Shown here: in pieces, positions 11,757 to 34,959 of the stretch
How the letters are laid out: each line of letters starts with the position of its first letter
Numbering within the stretch: position 1 is the stretch's first letter
Made by a program: the position numbers and the translations under genes
Notes under the pieces: model-generated
Databases searched by the model: none
Told to the model about the DNA's origin: nothing
What the model saw: only the letters and a program-made list of their open reading frames with translations
NCBI GenBank assembly: GCA_018303725.1
Contig: JAGVXP010000020.1
Coordinates: 1 to 38,545, forward strand
Source of the DNA: Candidatus Woesearchaeota archaeon
GTDB lineage: Archaea > Nanobdellota > Nanobdellia > Woesearchaeales > JAGVXP01
Direction: 5' to 3'
Length of the DNA stretch: 38,545 nt

Positions 11757-11873
11757 TGTCAAGAACCTGCGGTTCTTGAGCATGAACTGAGAAATTGGCT
11801 TTGCCAATTTCTGGTTTGTTAGAAAGCTTCGCTTTCAAACACTCAGAAATTTGCTTTAAGAAAATTTCTGACA
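11757..11873 (+). repeat. Element A: four-way-junction stem-loop element (TGTC-P1-GAGCATG...CTC-P3-GACA) with two extra hairpins
   Basis: TGTC | AAGAACC-TGC-GGTTCTT | GAGCATGAACTG | AGAAATTGGC-TTT-GCCAATTTCT | GGTTTGTTA | GAAAGC-TTC-GCTTTC | AAACACTC | AGAAATTT...AAATTTCT | GACA. Same linkers as element B. Confidence 0.85.
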
Positions 11874-19988: not shown

Positions 19989-22807
19989 TTGGGGGGTTGG
20001 AAAATCAAAAAAGAAATTAGTTCAATTATAGTTATACTTTTATTAATCTTTAATACAACATTTGTATCAGCTTACCCTGTTACAATTAGGTTAACAGCTA
20101 ATGTGGGTGACTTTTATACAGATGTTTACAGGTGTTCTAGCCCTAATTGCAATGGTATAACCTTTTATAGCAGCAATTATGGAAACCCTAATTTATATAC
20201 TGTGGCAGGGTCTGGAACACAATATTTTGCAGAATATGACTATTTGAATTGTTATTTGTCTCAAAAATACACTATGAATTTTACAGGCAGCACAGGGCCA
20301 GGGCCATGGGATTATGATGTCAACTTTGTAAAGAAAAATAGCTGTAATTCAACAATAAACTCTGTTGTTATTTCTGATAATAATGTTGTTGTTGGAGAGG
20401 TTGTTGCAGTAACAGCTAATATAAGGAGTGCTTTTGACGACCCCAGCGCTCCACCAAATAAAGTGCCTAGCGCATTAAACTCATATTTTTCTTCAGATAT
20501 TATTATAGAGCTAAGAATTAATGGAGCAGCTGTTGATACAAGAAACGTAGACATATTTATGGGGGCTAATCAAGATGTTCAGTTAACGTGGATTCCAGCT
20601 TCAACCGGAACTTATAGTGTAGAAATAGTAACTAATGTTAATGATTGTAGCTGCTCTAATTCATTAACATCAACAAATCCTGCTGGTAATATAAATGTAA
20701 ATCCAATCAGCAGTAGTTGGAGATATAACAGCACTTGGTTGGACCCTTACGATTATGTCTCCCAAAGCCAATATGGTTTATGTAATGAAGGTAATGGCGG
20801 TTATTGTGGAGCCCACCAGCCAGGATGGACAAGTTGCGATGATTATGATCAAGATGTATACAGGCCCGGAATGTTTTGGTGTAATCCTAATGATTGCGGA
20901 GCGGATATTTACAGGGAATTTATGTTAAGGTTGCCAGCTGTGACAGGGGATAACGATTGTTTGATAAGCATGAGGGGAGGTTATGATGACACCACAACAG
21001 AGCAGCTAAAGTTTACCCATTCCTATAATGGCAATACAGCTATAAGCACAATAATTGTTCCCGATGCTGGTTCTGGTGAAATTGAATTTACTTTCCCGGG
21101 AACATTCACCTTCCAGACAGGAACAAATTATATGCATTTCACAAACCCGCAGTTTTGTGTGCAATCTGGCAGCGGAAGTGTTCATGTTAGGGAATTTAAT
21201 GTCTTATGCGGAGCAAACACAGCCCCGACATTAGCAGGAATCCCCAATCAACAAACCGATGAGGATACAACGCCAACTTGGCAAATTGATCTGTGGTCAT
21301 ATGCCTCAGATAATGAAGAAACTGATGACCAATTAAGTTTCTCTGTTTCATCACAATCCAATCCAGGCCTTATCTCATGCTCAATATCCTCAAATAGGTA
21401 TCTAAGCTGCGGAGCTCCAGCTCCAAACCAAAATGGGTATTCTGATGTTACTGTTCAGGTTTCCGATGGCCTTTTAACAGACACAACTAATTTTAGAGTA
21501 ACTGTTAACCAGGTAGATGAACTATGCAGCGATGGTATTGACAACGACGGAGACAGCTTAGCAGACGACCTAGACCCAGGCTGTTATGACTCTGGCGCTT
21601 ACAATCCAAATGACAGTGATGAAACAGACACACTGTCTCCAAGTGACAATGGCTGTGCTGATGCAGCTGATAATGATGAAATGACAGAATGCCAGGACTC
21701 CATTGACAATGACTTAGATACATTTACAGATTTATTAGATCCCGGCTGTGCTGATGTGCAAGACAGCTCAGAGTTAAACCCAGCAGTGCAGTGCGATGAT
21801 AATATAGATAACGACTTAGACACTTACACAGATTACCCTAACGACCCTGGCTGTACAAGCCCAACAGATAATAATGAATTAGATATAGCTCCAGCATGTA
21901 GTGATGGTTCAGATAATGATTTAGATGGTTTTATTGACTGGCCTAGTGACCCAGGCTGTATAGACGCAACAGATACTACAGAAACAAACCCCGCAATAGA
22001 ATGCGATGATGGCATAGATAATGCAGATGCTGATAACCTAATTGACATGGCAGACCCTGGCTGTACAAATCCATCAGACACATCCGAAACCAATGGACAA
22101 ATGACCTAGGCTGTACAAGTTATTCGGACAGCTCAGAATTAAACCCATTAATAGAATGTGACGACGGCTCTGACAATTCAGATGCTGATAGCTTAGCAGA
22201 TTACCCAGCTGACCCAGGCTGTACAAGCCCGTCTGATGCAACAGAGACAGACGGTGATTGTGACGACCTAAATGATAATGATGGTGACACCTACACAGAT
22301 TACCCTAACGACCCAGGCTGTACAAGTTATTCGGACAGCTCAGAATTAAACCCAGTAATAGAATGCGACAACGGAATTGATGACGATTTAGATGGCTTAA
22401 TAGATTACCCTGATGATATAGGTTGCGGGACTCCAATAGATAGCGATGAATTTAATCCAGCACCCCCGGTAGAAAATATAAATTTAGAGAGCAGGGATTT
22501 GCGTATCAATCATATTACTATCCCTCAAGATAGTTTTATTAGGCCTGGTGATGATTTAGCGCTTGAGCTTGATTTCGAAAATGAAGGAACTATATTTATG
22601 GATGATGTTACAGTTACTATTATCTCCCCCGAGTTAGGCATAAAAAAAAGGATTGGCCCTTTTGATTTAGACAAAAATGAGGATACAACTAGGACGCTCT
22701 TATTAGAAATGCCTTACTATGTGGAACCAGGCATTTACGATCTAAGAATCACAATAAGCAATGACAAATACAGAAGGGTAAGGCACAGGCCAATTGTAAT
22801 AACCTAA
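19989..22807 (+). pseudogene. Secreted surface protein with Asp/Cys-rich CxDGxDNDxDxxxDxxDPGC repeats, interrupted by a frameshift at about 22100-22110; ORFs 19989-22109 and 22499-22807 are parts of one gene
   Basis: Signal-like N-terminus (IIVILLLIFNTTFVSA). Repeats continue after the TAG at 22107-22109 in another frame (NDLGCTSYSDSSELNPLIECDDGSDNSDADSLADYPADPGC...) and read directly into LRINHITIPQDSFIRPGDDLALELDFENEG. Confidence 0.8.
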
Positions 22808-22815
22808 CTATACTT

Positions 22816-22847
22816 GCGGACAAAAATAATTAGGCATTTTTGTCCGC
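22816..22847. terminator. Candidate stem-loop terminator downstream of the repeat-protein gene
   Basis: GCGGACAAAAAT-AATTAGGC-ATTTTTGTCCGC, 12-bp perfect stem, 9 bp after the stop codon. Confidence 0.4.
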
Positions 22848-22855
22848 TCGTAATA

Positions 22856-22933
22856 TGTCAGAAATCGCAACTATTAATTATAAATACTTGCGATTTCTGA
22901 GCATGCTCAAACACAGCTATGCTGTTTTTGACA
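22856..22933 (-). repeat. Element C: minimal four-way-junction element
   Basis: Minus strand: TGTC | AAAAACAGC-ATA-GCTGTGTTT | GAGCATGCTC | AGAAATCGCAA...TTGCGATTTCT | GACA. Confidence 0.8.
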
Positions 22934-22975
22934 AGCAAAAGACATTTTATTGTCTAAATGTTTATGTCTTTTGCT
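22934..22975. repeat. Inverted repeat abutting element C
   Basis: AGCAAAAGACAT (22934-22945) / ATGTCTTTTGCT (22964-22975), 12-bp perfect. Confidence 0.6.
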
Positions 22976-23037
22976 ATAATATATACTCAACTACAATAAT
23001 ATTTATATAGAAGTTATGACTCCACAATAGTTATAAA

Positions 23038-26769: not shown

Positions 26770-27936
26770 TTATATTCTTACCAAGCCGATTATCTTCAAT
26801 ATTTCATAAATTGTACCTGCAATAAACATTGCTATAAAGGTAAGATTCAGCAGCTTGTTTTCTTTTATGCTGTACTCTGGTTTTCTCTGGCCGAATTTTT
26901 TTGCCTTCCATATCATCAGCACCACCAGCACCCCCATCAATCCTCCTGAAAACGCTCCGGTTATATCTATCACCTTGAAAAACGCATTGTCAATATTTGT
27001 CATTATCATAATCAGGGCTATAGCCAAAGGAAGAAAACAAACCAGAGAAGATGCTAAGTTTTTCTTGCACCCAAAATCAAAGCAGTACATCTCCTTTAAA
27101 GCCAAACCAACAGCTATGAAGCTTGTTGCCATTGTTAAAATCCCAAAAGCAGTCCCAAACAAAAGCATCTTAAAGCCTAAAACAGTTGCTAAACCAAGAA
27201 TCGCCCCCTCTGTTGTTGCGTTGCCTGTAACACCCACAACAATAAAAGCGAAAATCAGGTAAACTACTATAGGTATTAAAGAGCCAATAATAATGGCCTT
27301 TTTCATATCTTCCTTGTTGTTCTTTAATTCTTCCCTTAGCTCAGGAATTGCCCCTATCCCAAGATAGGCAAATAAAACAACGCCATACGGGATAAAAATA
27401 TTTTTTATGTTGAATGATGTTAAATTTTCCTGGTTGATTGAGGAAAATGCCAGGATAAATATTATAAAGCCAATAAACAACAAGAAAAAAACCATCAGCA
27501 GCTCGCTTTCTTCTATAATCCTCAATCCCTTATAAACCAAAAAAGACACTGCAATAAAGAATAAGATAGAGTAAATCAGAGGAGAGCCCCCAAATTGAGG
27601 GGAGAGGATGGCATTCAGGAATTCTCCCTCCTTTATTGTATAAGCGACCAAAGCGCCGTACATGCCAAACATCATGCCAAAAGTCATCAGCTTTTTTCCA
27701 ATCTTGCCTAAATATATATTAGCATAGCCTGTTAATTGATGATCTCCTTTGGTTCTTAAAACAATCTCGCCAATATAAAGGTTTAGAAACAAAATAACAA
27801 TGCCTATCACAATTATATCAATAATTCCTGTTACAAAACCAGCCTTTGCAACAACAAAAGGTATCCCTAAGATGCCTGCTCCGATTACAAAGCCAACCAA
27901 TGTGGCTATTGCTTCTAAAAGGTGTTTTTTTGGCAT
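26770..27936 (-). CDS. Amino acid permease (aromatic/HAAAP or SLC38-like)
   Basis: LLEAIATLVGFVIGAGILGIPFVVAKAGFVTGIIDII; about 11 TM helices. Confidence 0.85.
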   Translation of the reverse strand: MPKKHLLEAIATLVGFVIGAGILGIPFVVAKAGFVTGIIDIIVIGIVILFLNLYIGEIVLRTKGDHQLTGYANIYLGKIGKKLMTFGMMFGMYGALVAYTIKEGEFLNAILSPQFGGSPLIYSILFFIAVSFLVYKGLRIIEESELLMVFFLLFIGFIIFILAFSSINQENLTSFNIKNIFIPYGVVLFAYLGIGAIPELREELKNNKEDMKKAIIIGSLIPIVVYLIFAFIVVGVTGNATTEGAILGLATVLGFKMLLFGTAFGILTMATSFIAVGLALKEMYCFDFGCKKNLASSLVCFLPLAIALIMIMTNIDNAFFKVIDITGAFSGGLMGVLVVLMIWKAKKFGQRKPEYSIKENKLLNLTFIAMFIAGTIYEILKIIGLVRI

Positions 27937-28163: not shown

Positions 28164-28440
28164 TGTCAGAAACTTTCCACCAGTTTATGTCGGAAATGCT
28201 TTGCATTTCTGAGCACATTAAAAATCCCTTGATTTTTAATGAAACTGGTGGCTGAAAGCCAATCTCATTTCAGATGATGGAAAGTTTCTGAGTGTTTAAA
28301 ATGGCAAAGCCATTTTTAACAAACCAAAAATTCCTTTCAGGAATTTTTCAGTTCATGCTCAAAAACCACCCACATTAATGGGATGGCTTTATAGGCGTAA
28401 GCCTTTCATGCCACCCATCAAAGATGGGTGGTTTTTGACA
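28164..28440 (-). repeat. Element B: expanded four-way-junction element with nested hairpins and a nested partial copy
   Basis: Minus strand: TGTC | AAAAACCACCC...GGGTGGTTTTT | GAGCATGAACTG | AAAAATTCCT-GAA-AGGAATTTTT | GGTTTGTTA | AAAATGGC-TTT-GCCATTTT | AAACACTC | AGAAACTTTCC...GGAAAGTTTCT | GACA. Confidence 0.85.
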
Positions 28441-31263: not shown

Positions 31264-34200
31264 ATGAAAACAGGCAAAATTCTATTTGTGATAGCAATGG
31301 TTGTATTAATGGTTGGGTTGAGTTCTTTTGCAAATGCTGCGGTGTTTGGCAAGAGAGGGGTTCCAGCTAACGCATCAATAAGGTTTAATGCAACTGTTTT
31401 TAATCTAGACCTAGACAAAGCCGATGTATATATTCAGATTGCTGTTAATGATACATCCTTGGATGCCGATGGAGCTGTTTTTAATAACGTGTCGATATAT
31501 CTTAACAGCACCACTCTTGGTGGAGCTGCAAATGCCATAACTGTTGTTCTAAATGAGTCAGCTGTTGATAGCGGATTTTTTAATTTTAGTATGAACTCTT
31601 CAGAAGCTAACCCTGGAGAGATTGAGAATCTCTCTATTACCTTAGGGATTAAGAGCGCTTTGTCTAGTAACTTAACTTTAAATGTTACAGCAGGAGATAG
31701 AATAATGGCATGGTATACTTCTAATGATGGAAATAATTATAGTGATGTAGCTTATATTGATCAAAAAGCAACGATAGCATTTGATAATGGAAGTTACAGC
31801 TTGAAAGATGGTGTTAATATAAGTATAACTGATTGTGGTTTTAATAAAAACGCAACAAAGGTGGATAATGTTCAACTGAATGTATCGGGTGACCTAGCAA
31901 CAGGTGGAATTTTAGTAGCATTGAATGAAACTGGGATTGATACATGTGTTTATAAAGTATATACATCATCATCAAAGGATGATGAGACAGGTGTAAATGC
32001 TTTGAACCTTAACTTTAGCGATACCGCTACTGATGATCTGGAAAATATGCTGCAAGTTCAGGCTGGAAGCAGGGTTGTTGCTAAAATTAATTTTACACAT
32101 GCTGCTTTTGGAGAAAGTTATTCAGATACTAATGTGACAGGACAAACTGAAACTGATTCATCATATGATGTGGCATATCTAGATATGAATGCTATTGTTA
32201 ATATTACCATGGGCGGCAACTCTGTTAAAAGAGGGGGGGTTACTTGCGGTGTTCCTTGTGATGGCGGCAATATTAAATTTAACTTAACTATGAATATTAC
32301 AGAAGGCGGTGCTTCTGGTACTATCTTTTCTCTAATAACTGTTACTTTAGATAATATTGCTTCAAACAATAGGTCACTATATTTAAAAGTAGCAGAAGGA
32401 GGACAAGTAAACGCAACTTATACAGATACAGGTAACTTTAATGGCACTGATTATTCCGCAACTACAAACCTTAGCAGTATGAGTTTATATGACAATGGAA
32501 CTATTGAATTTAACAATATCAATCCAATAAGGGCTTACCAATCAAATTCAACGGTTACATTGACTGTAAGAGACACAGACCTTAATTATGACCCTGCTGA
32601 ATATGATACAGCTAATGTGACTTTATATAATCTTGGATTGGATAGTGGTGTGGAATATTTTGTTGTTCTGAATGAGTCTGGAGCAGATACAGGAATATTC
32701 AATGGAACGCTAAACACTACTCTTAACTCAAGGTCAATAACATTCAAAGTTAATATAACCACAGATGATAACTCAAATTTAACGGTAAATATCACAGGCG
32801 ATGGAGGAGATCTATTAAAAGCCAATTACACAGATAATTCAACGCTTCTAGCCAATATTACAGTAAGTGAATTCGCAAAATTAGAACAAAGCAGTAATAT
32901 CACAATAAACTTGACTACTGTAAAGCCAATTGTATTTGCACCAAATGACGATATAAATATAACTGTTGTTGATAATGGCTCTAATATTAATAGAACATTA
33001 GTAGAGCAGATAAACGTCTCAGTAGGCAGCCCTAATAGTGCAGGATTTATCCTTATATTAAATGAAAGTTCTGCAGATTCGGGAGTATTTAGTATAACTG
33101 TTAATAGATCAGCACCATATAATGCCAATACACTTTCAGTAGTAACAAGCGGCGCAAGTACTGATTTCTATGATATACTTGTAGCAGAGCATGGAAATAT
33201 TACAGTATATTACCTTGATACAAACCTCTCTGGCCAAATAGTCAACAAGACAACGGGAGGAAATATATCCACTACTGGTTATGTATATCTAAATACAACA
33301 GTGTTTGCTGCATCAGAGCATGTAAAAGTTAATGTATTAGATCAGGATAATAATACAGATCCTAGTAACTATGAAATTATTAAGGTAACATTTTATAGCG
33401 ATTCAGATAGTGGTGGTGGTGGTGTTAATTTATCCCTTAATGAAAGTGGTATAAATACAGGATTATTCAACGTACCCCTAAATAGTAGTATTCGTTACAT
33501 CAACTTTAGTTGGACCGTTAGCGACAATAGATCCTTATTAATAAATGAAGGAGACAAATTATATGTAAATTACTCAGACACAGTGCCAGCAGCGGTAAGA
33601 ACGCTTAACACATCAGGCAGGATAGAGCAAACAGCTACTGCAGTCATTGAATTTGCAGGCTATAATATTACTGCAGATGATATAAACATAACAGTAACTG
33701 ATATGGGAGGAAACACAAATGAATCTGCACTAGATACTGTAAATGTTGTTTTAATCTGTTCTGGTGGCAGTGGAAGTATTAACCAATCAGTAAATGTAAC
33801 CCTGAATGAAAGCGATCTGGATACTGGAACATTCTATATAGAGCATTCTGTTAGTGTAACAAACACAACAGCTTCTAGCGATTCTACTGATACAGTGCAA
33901 TGCGGCGCTGGAGGAAGGTTGTATGTTAATTATACTGATAACAAGAATGTTAACGGCACTCTCTACGCATATGTACAGGATTACGCAAACATATTTGGAA
34001 ATGCCACCACTCTTGCATTTACCAATTCAAAAGTGGCTTATAACGCAACAGATGGCATAAACATAACAGTTACAGACCGTGATGAGAATATTGACTGGGG
34101 CGTATCAGATACAATTCAAATTAGATTAGTCAGCACAAATGATACAAAAGGAATATGGATAGTGCTAAATGAGACTGATGTAGATTCAGGAATATTCAAT

Positions 34201-34959
34201 ATAACAAATGGCACTGGTAGTGATATCTCCTTAAGCGATGATGGAATCACAAATGAAAGTGGAAGTGTCAATCAGTTAGGAGTGCAGGAAGGAGATACAT
34301 TGGTTGTTGTATACCCAGACCAAAATGATACCAATGGTGATATGAGATGGAATATAACAGATGTTGCAGTTGTCAATACACAAGCAGCATTATTGCAAGG
34401 ATGGGATTTAATATCAACACCATACAGCTTAGAAACATATAAAAGGAATGTAAGCTTATTGTTTGAGGATGTTGATGTTAATTACACAGGAACCAGTTAT
34501 GACATTTTATGGTGGAATGGAAGCCAGTGGGCTAACTCATTAGGCGCTAGCAGCAATATTGAGCCATTAAAAGCATATTGGATACAAACAACCGGCAGTA
34601 GGCGTACTGTAACATTCCAGCCAAAATATGGCGGATTAGGCGCTAGCCATGGATGGCCAGATCAAGCGCCTTCAAATACACAAGGGTATGAGAATTCATT
34701 GGCTTTAGCAGCTGGTTACTGGAACTTGATAGGGCCAAACAAAATACCTGATGTAGGTGTAGATACCATATTTGGTAGCTTATTGAATGACACTAACCTT
34801 GCAAGAAGAAGGTGGAGAATACAGGAGTATGACACTAACCAAGTTAGCGCAACAGAGGCAGCATTGAGCACATATTATCTGAAGAACACCTCAGGCTACC
34901 TATTATGGGTGCCAGCTGACATGACAGGTATAAATTACCAGGGCTTTAACGTCAGATAA
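31264..34959 (+). CDS. Large secreted S-layer-like glycoprotein with tandem beta-domain repeats, extremely rich in N-glycosylation sequons
   Basis: Signal peptide (ILFVIAMVVLMVGLSSFANAA); recurring LNE[S/T]xxDxGxF and DxINITVxD motifs; terminal QGWDLISTPYSLE...PLKAYWIQTTG domain. Confidence 0.85.
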   Translation: MKTGKILFVIAMVVLMVGLSSFANAAVFGKRGVPANASIRFNATVFNLDLDKADVYIQIAVNDTSLDADGAVFNNVSIYLNSTTLGGAANAITVVLNESAVDSGFFNFSMNSSEANPGEIENLSITLGIKSALSSNLTLNVTAGDRIMAWYTSNDGNNYSDVAYIDQKATIAFDNGSYSLKDGVNISITDCGFNKNATKVDNVQLNVSGDLATGGILVALNETGIDTCVYKVYTSSSKDDETGVNALNLNFSDTATDDLENMLQVQAGSRVVAKINFTHAAFGESYSDTNVTGQTETDSSYDVAYLDMNAIVNITMGGNSVKRGGVTCGVPCDGGNIKFNLTMNITEGGASGTIFSLITVTLDNIASNNRSLYLKVAEGGQVNATYTDTGNFNGTDYSATTNLSSMSLYDNGTIEFNNINPIRAYQSNSTVTLTVRDTDLNYDPAEYDTANVTLYNLGLDSGVEYFVVLNESGADTGIFNGTLNTTLNSRSITFKVNITTDDNSNLTVNITGDGGDLLKANYTDNSTLLANITVSEFAKLEQSSNITINLTTVKPIVFAPNDDINITVVDNGSNINRTLVEQINVSVGSPNSAGFILILNESSADSGVFSITVNRSAPYNANTLSVVTSGASTDFYDILVAEHGNITVYYLDTNLSGQIVNKTTGGNISTTGYVYLNTTVFAASEHVKVNVLDQDNNTDPSNYEIIKVTFYSDSDSGGGGVNLSLNESGINTGLFNVPLNSSIRYINFSWTVSDNRSLLINEGDKLYVNYSDTVPAAVRTLNTSGRIEQTATAVIEFAGYNITADDINITVTDMGGNTNESALDTVNVVLICSGGSGSINQSVNVTLNESDLDTGTFYIEHSVSVTNTTASSDSTDTVQCGAGGRLYVNYTDNKNVNGTLYAYVQDYANIFGNATTLAFTNSKVAYNATDGINITVTDRDENIDWGVSDTIQIRLVSTNDTKGIWIVLNETDVDSGIFNITNGTGSDISLSDDGITNESGSVNQLGVQEGDTLVVVYPDQNDTNGDMRWNITDVAVVNTQAALLQGWDLISTPYSLETYKRNVSLLFEDVDVNYTGTSYDILWWNGSQWANSLGASSNIEPLKAYWIQTTGSRRTVTFQPKYGGLGASHGWPDQAPSNTQGYENSLALAAGYWNLIGPNKIPDVGVDTIFGSLLNDTNLARRRWRIQEYDTNQVSATEAALSTYYLKNTSGYLLWVPADMTGINYQGFNVR

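Follow-up and report, generated by a model that had tools for sequence, protein, structure and literature searches.

Several kinds of short palindromic DNA can be compared with the repeat family analysed in this report, and the nearest description is the group of CGTC/TGTC-tagged REPs (Di Nocera et al. 2013, PMC3733652), which includes Rickettsia RPE-4/RPE-6 and Neisseria dRS3. Like the family described here, these are short hairpins with a tag at the foot (CGTC, with TGTC in many repeats; TGTC in our family), an A-T first stem pair and variable stems and loops; they are mostly head-to-head dimers with the tags outside, they have intragenic copies, and no transposase was found for this type, or beside its copies, in the 2013 survey (PMC3733652). 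REPINs/BIMEs with RAYT (TnpA-REP) resemble our family in that the mobile unit is an inverted pair of hairpins whose feet carry a tetranucleotide and in that an autonomous copy of the unit is absent (PMC3116915, PMC6006769). The Rickettsia palindromic elements (Ogata et al.), as summarised in PMC10969869, are likewise found in-frame in unrelated housekeeping genes, to whose products they add a peptide. Finally, the ends-only elements of IS200/IS605 (PATEs) have terminal hairpins and insert 3' of a specific pentanucleotide without target duplication (PMC7290912); our family shares the hairpins and the lack of duplication, and its one-sided five-base target motif is less strict than a fixed word.

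None of these kinds accommodates the family as a whole, because its tail, its bulge, the freedom of its stems and its archaeal hosts differ. CGTC-tagged REPs are bacterial and have 8-9 bp stems, a loop of 4-5 nt and CCA-like tails (PMC3733652), whereas the family here has DPANN hosts, stems as short as about 8 bp or as extensive as long branched arms, loops often of 3 nt, and a GAGCA tail with which the tag partly pairs, leaving one bulged base. REPs carry a GTAG (GTAG/GTGG) foot tag instead of TGTC, keep their stem sequences within a genome and usually have a RAYT gene beside some copies, whereas none was found here at the Y1 loci inspected, and the stem diversity of our family is far above that of REPs whose stems are thought to be recognised by the enzyme. 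The Rickettsia elements are bacterial and about 150 bp long, whereas our family has a minimal unit of 54 bp, from which peptides such as MSEIQRISEHAQKPLVFDK are encoded. Unlike PATEs, the family had no parent insertion sequence with its ends at the 50 Y1 loci inspected. A literature search of incomplete coverage, which is not proof of absence, returned nothing relevant on such elements in DPANN archaea, and as far as searched the family was apparently undescribed before.

Copy B and the unit nested in it

The window, by which we mean the whole stretch of 38,545 nucleotides analysed, is one contig (C40) of a draft Candidatus Woesearchaeota assembly (1.30 Mb, 62 contigs, 81% complete), and work on this genome covered the stretches around matches. 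Judged by its relatives and by the global scan, the genome's affinities lie with the Woesearchaeota within the DPANN. It holds three copies of the family, A, B and C. Copy B has a Trp/Tyr-permease gene (26770-27936, minus strand) on one side and a PIN-domain gene (from 28454, plus strand) on the other, with a gap of 13 bp between its end and the start of the PIN-domain gene. Elsewhere in the window, at 21644-22444 and 31264-34959, lie open reading frames in which acidic motifs of the DNDxDxYTDYPNDPGC type recur, and a repetitive protein of 1231 aa; these are probably surface proteins. The features of the three copies are as follows.

11757-11873, plus strand: copy A, a four-hairpin member of the family, free of nested insertions
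22856-22933, plus strand: copy C, a two-hairpin unit, TGTCAGAAATCGCAA...TTGCGATTTCTGAGCATGCTCAAACACAGC-TAT-GCTGTTTTTGACA
28164-28440, minus strand: copy B, a complete compound element TGTCA...TGACA of 277 bp
28358-28440, minus strand: hairpin P1 of copy B (A-type arm), TGTCAAAAACCACCC...GGGTGGTTTTTGAG, enclosing the hairpins CCACCCATC-TTT-GATGGGTGG and AGGC-TTAC-GCCT
28293-28353, minus strand: 61-bp central insert of copy B, between GAGCATG and CTCAG, carrying P2 and P3
28326-28348, minus strand: hairpin P2, within the central insert
28298-28317, minus strand: hairpin P3, within the central insert
28164-28291, minus strand: hairpin P4 (B-type arm; called P3 in the earlier note), TCAGAAACTTTCC...GGAAAGTTTCTGACA, split by the nested unit
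28188-28241, minus strand: complete 54-bp unit of two hairpins, nested in the P4 loop, CATTAAAAATC-AAGG-GATTTTTAATGTGCTCAGAAATGC-AAA-GCATTTCCGACA

An earlier note on this DNA had described copy B as an expanded element with A-type linkers, and its stems and linkers were all found where it had placed them. The A-type linkers TGAGCATGAACTGA, TGGTTTGTTA and AAACACTCAGAAA recur on the minus strand of copy B as exact matches to copy A, and P1 is indeed a large nested stem with two inner hairpins, which also appears in the minimum-energy folds. Folded as DNA, the 301-nt region reaches -79 kcal/mol against -32.5 +/- 3.7 for shuffles (z = -12.5); folded as RNA, it reaches -119 kcal/mol on the minus strand (z = -9.9) and -118 kcal/mol on the plus strand (z = -13.2). 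No shuffle equalled the real fold, and the minimum-energy structures show the four arms of the junction together with both hairpins of the embedded piece, so that no preference for structures incompatible with the junction was seen in the DNA or RNA folds of this region. The earlier note spoke of cruciforms, that is, of the extruded double-stranded form; the evidence suits single-strand hairpins at least as well.

Where the earlier reading needs correction is in the piece embedded in P4, which it took for the right half of another element. The two flanks of this piece, CCACCAGTTT|TAAACTGGTG, join to give CCACCAGTTTTAAACTGGTG, whose 20 bases match the uninserted arm of two other copies (L014 and L018) with 0 mismatches. 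The joined flanks thus reproduce exact empty sites, from which it follows both that the embedded piece is a complete 54-bp two-hairpin unit and that it was inserted cleanly, without target duplication; accordingly, the 277 bp of copy B consist of a 223-bp four-hairpin element and the 54 bp of the nested unit. The inner piece proved to be a whole unit of the family, not an unrelated sequence, and neither of the results that would have spoken against the earlier note was seen. Copy B is a four-hairpin member whose P4 loop was entered later by a 54-bp unit, which supports the proposal that arms can take up insertions, members of their own family among them, with the outer junction preserved. The same is seen elsewhere: three further loci have nested insertions with exact 20-base empty sites (L016 compared with L027; L024 and L031 compared with L018), and in L198 a 66-bp unit has entered another unit at its centre, GAG^CATGCTC.

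Architecture, stem variation and target of the family

A single architecture was seen across the 56 contexts inspected: TGTCA-hairpin-TGAGCATGCTCA-hairpin-TGACA, which in the minimal unit spans 48-58 bp, with TGTC at both outer ends and the hairpin bodies facing inward. Judged from its sequence, each half can also form TG-TCA...TGA-G-CA, a hairpin in which a single base bulges out near the foot. In larger copies the arms are longer and branched, or additional hairpins stand at the centre; the latter holds for copies A and B, whose centre is laid out as GAGCATG|AACT-P2-GGTTTGTT-P3-AAACA|CTC; the position and linkers of the 61-bp central insert of copy B are shared with copy A and with other genomes of the order. 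A paired hairpin, pairing itself being the criterion for a hairpin, was found on both sides at 128 of 150 GAGCATGCTC centres. The start is TGTCA or TGTCG in 126 of 127 elements, which belong to loci selected partly by patterns presupposing the foot sequences and short pairing on one side. A longer related class, TGTCAAAAACCACCC...TTTTTGATGCTCA...GGTTTTTGAGCACAACA...GTGGAATNCTGTTG, has another right end (L026, 3529-3625; L027, 1960-2062; L029, L030, L036 and L043).

The stems vary between copies and remain paired. For 37 distinct short halves, which were picked without regard to pairing, Watson-Crick pairs make up 89% at stem positions 4-8; swapping arms between copies lowers this share to 68% (at most 78% in 1000 trials). 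Position 4 alternates between A-T and G-C, and position 8 between C-G and T-A.

The insertion site preference is directional and less strict than a fixed word. With elements oriented from the A to the B hairpin, the flank next to the B hairpin reads T (93%) N T (87%) Y A (70%), whereas the A side shows little; TNT occurs on the B side of 83 of 100 elements and on the A side of 15 of 100, and the full TNTYA on the B side of 46 of 100, counts that are not fully independent, many copies within a genus being related. On the other strand TNTYA reads TRANA, directly 5' of the element, and so is similar to the TGACA with which the element itself ends. The first four bases of the element, TGTC, are complementary to GACA, and the inner-side foot GCTC is not complementary to TGACA. 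A comparison of TGACA with CGACA ends against flank position +5, made for covariation of a guide with its target, gave no clear shift.

Some copies lie beside or within other repeats. Copy C (window 22800-22990) is flanked by two other palindromes, GCGGACAAAAA...TTTTTGTCCGC and AGCAAAAGACA...TGTCTTTTGCT, and several elements (L061, L075, L096, L162 and L201) lie beside one shared motif, TCGTAATA, of which L259 is the uninserted form; the palindromes around copy C and TCGTAATA look like a second palindromic repeat family serving as target. In L141, L177, L223 and L235 a conserved repeat ends in GTGTTCGAACCC, a motif that recalls a tRNA T-arm, and some copies of the repeat are split by the element at a single position.

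Mobility, host genes and distribution

Copy B very probably belongs to a mobile, REPIN-like family. As far as sequence comparison can tell, mobility is supported by cross-species empty sites, by the nested insertions described above and by insertions that keep the reading frame of host genes. Two of the empty sites are clean and without duplication: a 91-bp element is present in L189 and missing from L215, and a 92-bp element in L162 corresponds to uninterrupted GTAATA|GTCAAC in L259. One further empty-site pair is L053 and L261. Four identical flanking bases occur in none of 127 elements, against 1.2 expected, which indicates that there is no target-site duplication. Insertions are intergenic, in-frame within genes, or inside older copies, in arm loops or in the central GAGCATGCTC. 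Nine of the 127 elements lie inside reading frames open for at least 45 codons on each side, and seven of these have a length divisible by 3. In GatA, a 54-bp unit coincides with an 18-residue extra segment that is absent from solved GatA structures (PDB homologues); in GatE, a 54-bp unit lies at a 15-residue extra segment relative to solved PDB homologues. Other host genes encode a YgiQ-type radical SAM protein, CarA and DUF371. The encoded peptides have MSE...SEHAQK...FDK in common, as expected because the linkers are fixed.

The family is abundant where it occurs. This 1.3-Mb genome has about 50 copies: GAGCATGMWC matches 55 times forward and 51 times in reverse, against 0 for the reversed pattern, and blastn found 47 related places. 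Across the order, whose assemblies are drafts, the two-hairpin pattern is present in 51 of 295 genomes, with 48 matches in one of them and none of the reversed control in any genome, and the four-hairpin linker pattern in 7 of 295. A global scan of 85,488 species gave at least 112 stretches. The 80 matches listed come nearly all from Woese-, Pace-, Nano- or Aenigmatarchaeota or from bins labelled only as archaeon, and among these matches the family is thus almost confined to DPANN archaea. The contig with the nested copy in L198 (5437-5612), which is genuine, is binned as an Omnitrophica bacterium and reflects either transfer to bacteria or mis-binning. The two-hairpin pattern had no match in viral contigs, and a viral origin was rejected, two A-pattern matches (L250 and L251) being chance occurrences in coding DNA without hairpins.

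Mechanism and competing explanations

Taken as a whole, the explanation we consider reasonably likely is that of a DPANN-wide, non-autonomous mobile family of two-hairpin units, probably moved as single strands by an HUH-type enzyme acting in trans. The basic unit is two hairpins placed tail to tail, TGTCA-hairpin-TGAGCATGCTCA-hairpin-TGACA, and it would travel as single-stranded DNA. An HUH-type enzyme (Y1 TnpA/RAYT-like), recognising the feet of the hairpins, would probably cut and join at two cleavage sites, the element's 3' pentamer TGACA and the target TRANA, and the element's first bases, TGTC, complementary to GACA, might act as the guide. The lack of duplication, the pentamer target and the hairpin-foot guide are the logic of IS200/IS605 (PMC7290912), which TnpA-REP enzymes follow as well (PMC6006769), and it is this correspondence that favours HUH-type single-strand transposition; we advance the HUH mechanism tentatively, at a little short of an even chance.

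The proposal is favoured by the distribution of Y1_Tnp genes, which are present in 108 of the 295 genomes of the order and are commoner with the element (28 of 51 genomes) than without it (80 of 244; Fisher p = 0.004, ignoring phylogeny and genome size). Against it, no Y1_Tnp match was found in 23 of the 51 element-bearing genomes, several of them at least 94% complete (G052, G036 and G032). No transposase gene flanked by the family's hairpins was seen at 30 Y1 loci drawn from the order or at 20 from element-carrying genomes, nor was a RAYT gene flanked by the same repeats found among these 50, and a Y1 transposase as the immediate parent was rejected. Among the loci listed there was likewise no autonomous element, with hairpin halves far apart around an open reading frame. 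The great diversity of the stems and the lack of complementarity between the inner GCTC foot and TGACA also tell against the proposal. This genome has one Y1_Tnp match, at C11 (75 of 121 model positions, 87-aa open frame), and a single sub-threshold match to TnpB.

The family might instead descend, as an ends-only form (PATE), from one particular IS200/IS605 insertion sequence that these archaea still carry, as its two terminal hairpins, its five-base target motif, the lack of duplication and the frequency of Y1_Tnp genes in the order, with one match in this genome, would allow. The ends of the 50 inspected Y1 loci, however, lack TGTCA/TGAGCA hairpins, and the C11 gene is a fragment with different end hairpins, and we regard this origin as unlikely. 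The short terminal inverted repeats (TGTCA/TGACA), small size and many copies would also suit a MITE derived from an ordinary DDE-type insertion sequence. Target duplication is usual for DDE elements, however, whereas here a target-site duplication is absent, the empty sites are clean and the target motif is one-sided, which makes a DDE origin very unlikely.

Other accounts do without transposition as the main cause. If the element worked as a structured RNA or in regulation (as leader, terminator or processing element), its stems would be kept by selection on the RNA fold and insertion would be incidental. The very strong RNA folding of both strands, the stems paired with changes on both sides and the end of copy B 13 bp short of the PIN-domain gene are in line with this. 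Folding of both strands is nevertheless expected of any palindrome, and copies lie in-frame in unrelated protein genes, inside one another and on either genome strand, so that one RNA role does not fit; we find such a role quite improbable. A known RNA family was rejected, there being no Rfam covariance-model match above threshold in the window. The stem loops might instead be made locally by replication template switching, the shared linkers marking a preferred site, without any transposition. Arm-to-arm copying would give stems that vary between copies and pair perfectly, and it could operate on top of transposition; a complete unit with fixed ends at unrelated sites and the clean empty sites in relatives do not suit it, and the cross-species empty sites speak against template switching as sole cause, leaving it highly improbable.

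A different reading of the mobile family, possible but doubtful, is that it forms a class of mobile DNA peculiar to DPANN archaea and recognised chiefly through its fold, in which only the hairpin feet (TGTC/TGAGCA) would be fixed, the stems would be continually rewritten yet stay paired, and the TGTC guide would pair with its own GACA end or with the target; the mover would be a single-strand enzyme, perhaps not of the Y1 type.

For the family of non-autonomous two-hairpin units that we propose, the mechanism can be tested directly, since a genome may hold dozens of copies, the empty sites are precise, the target motif is directional and essential genes carry insertions in-frame. The family bears on the spread of CGTC/TGTC-type palindromic repeats and of palindromes that code for protein and, in hosts that have very small genomes and whose essential genes are hit in-frame, it shows one way in which reduced archaeal genomes gain protein segments.
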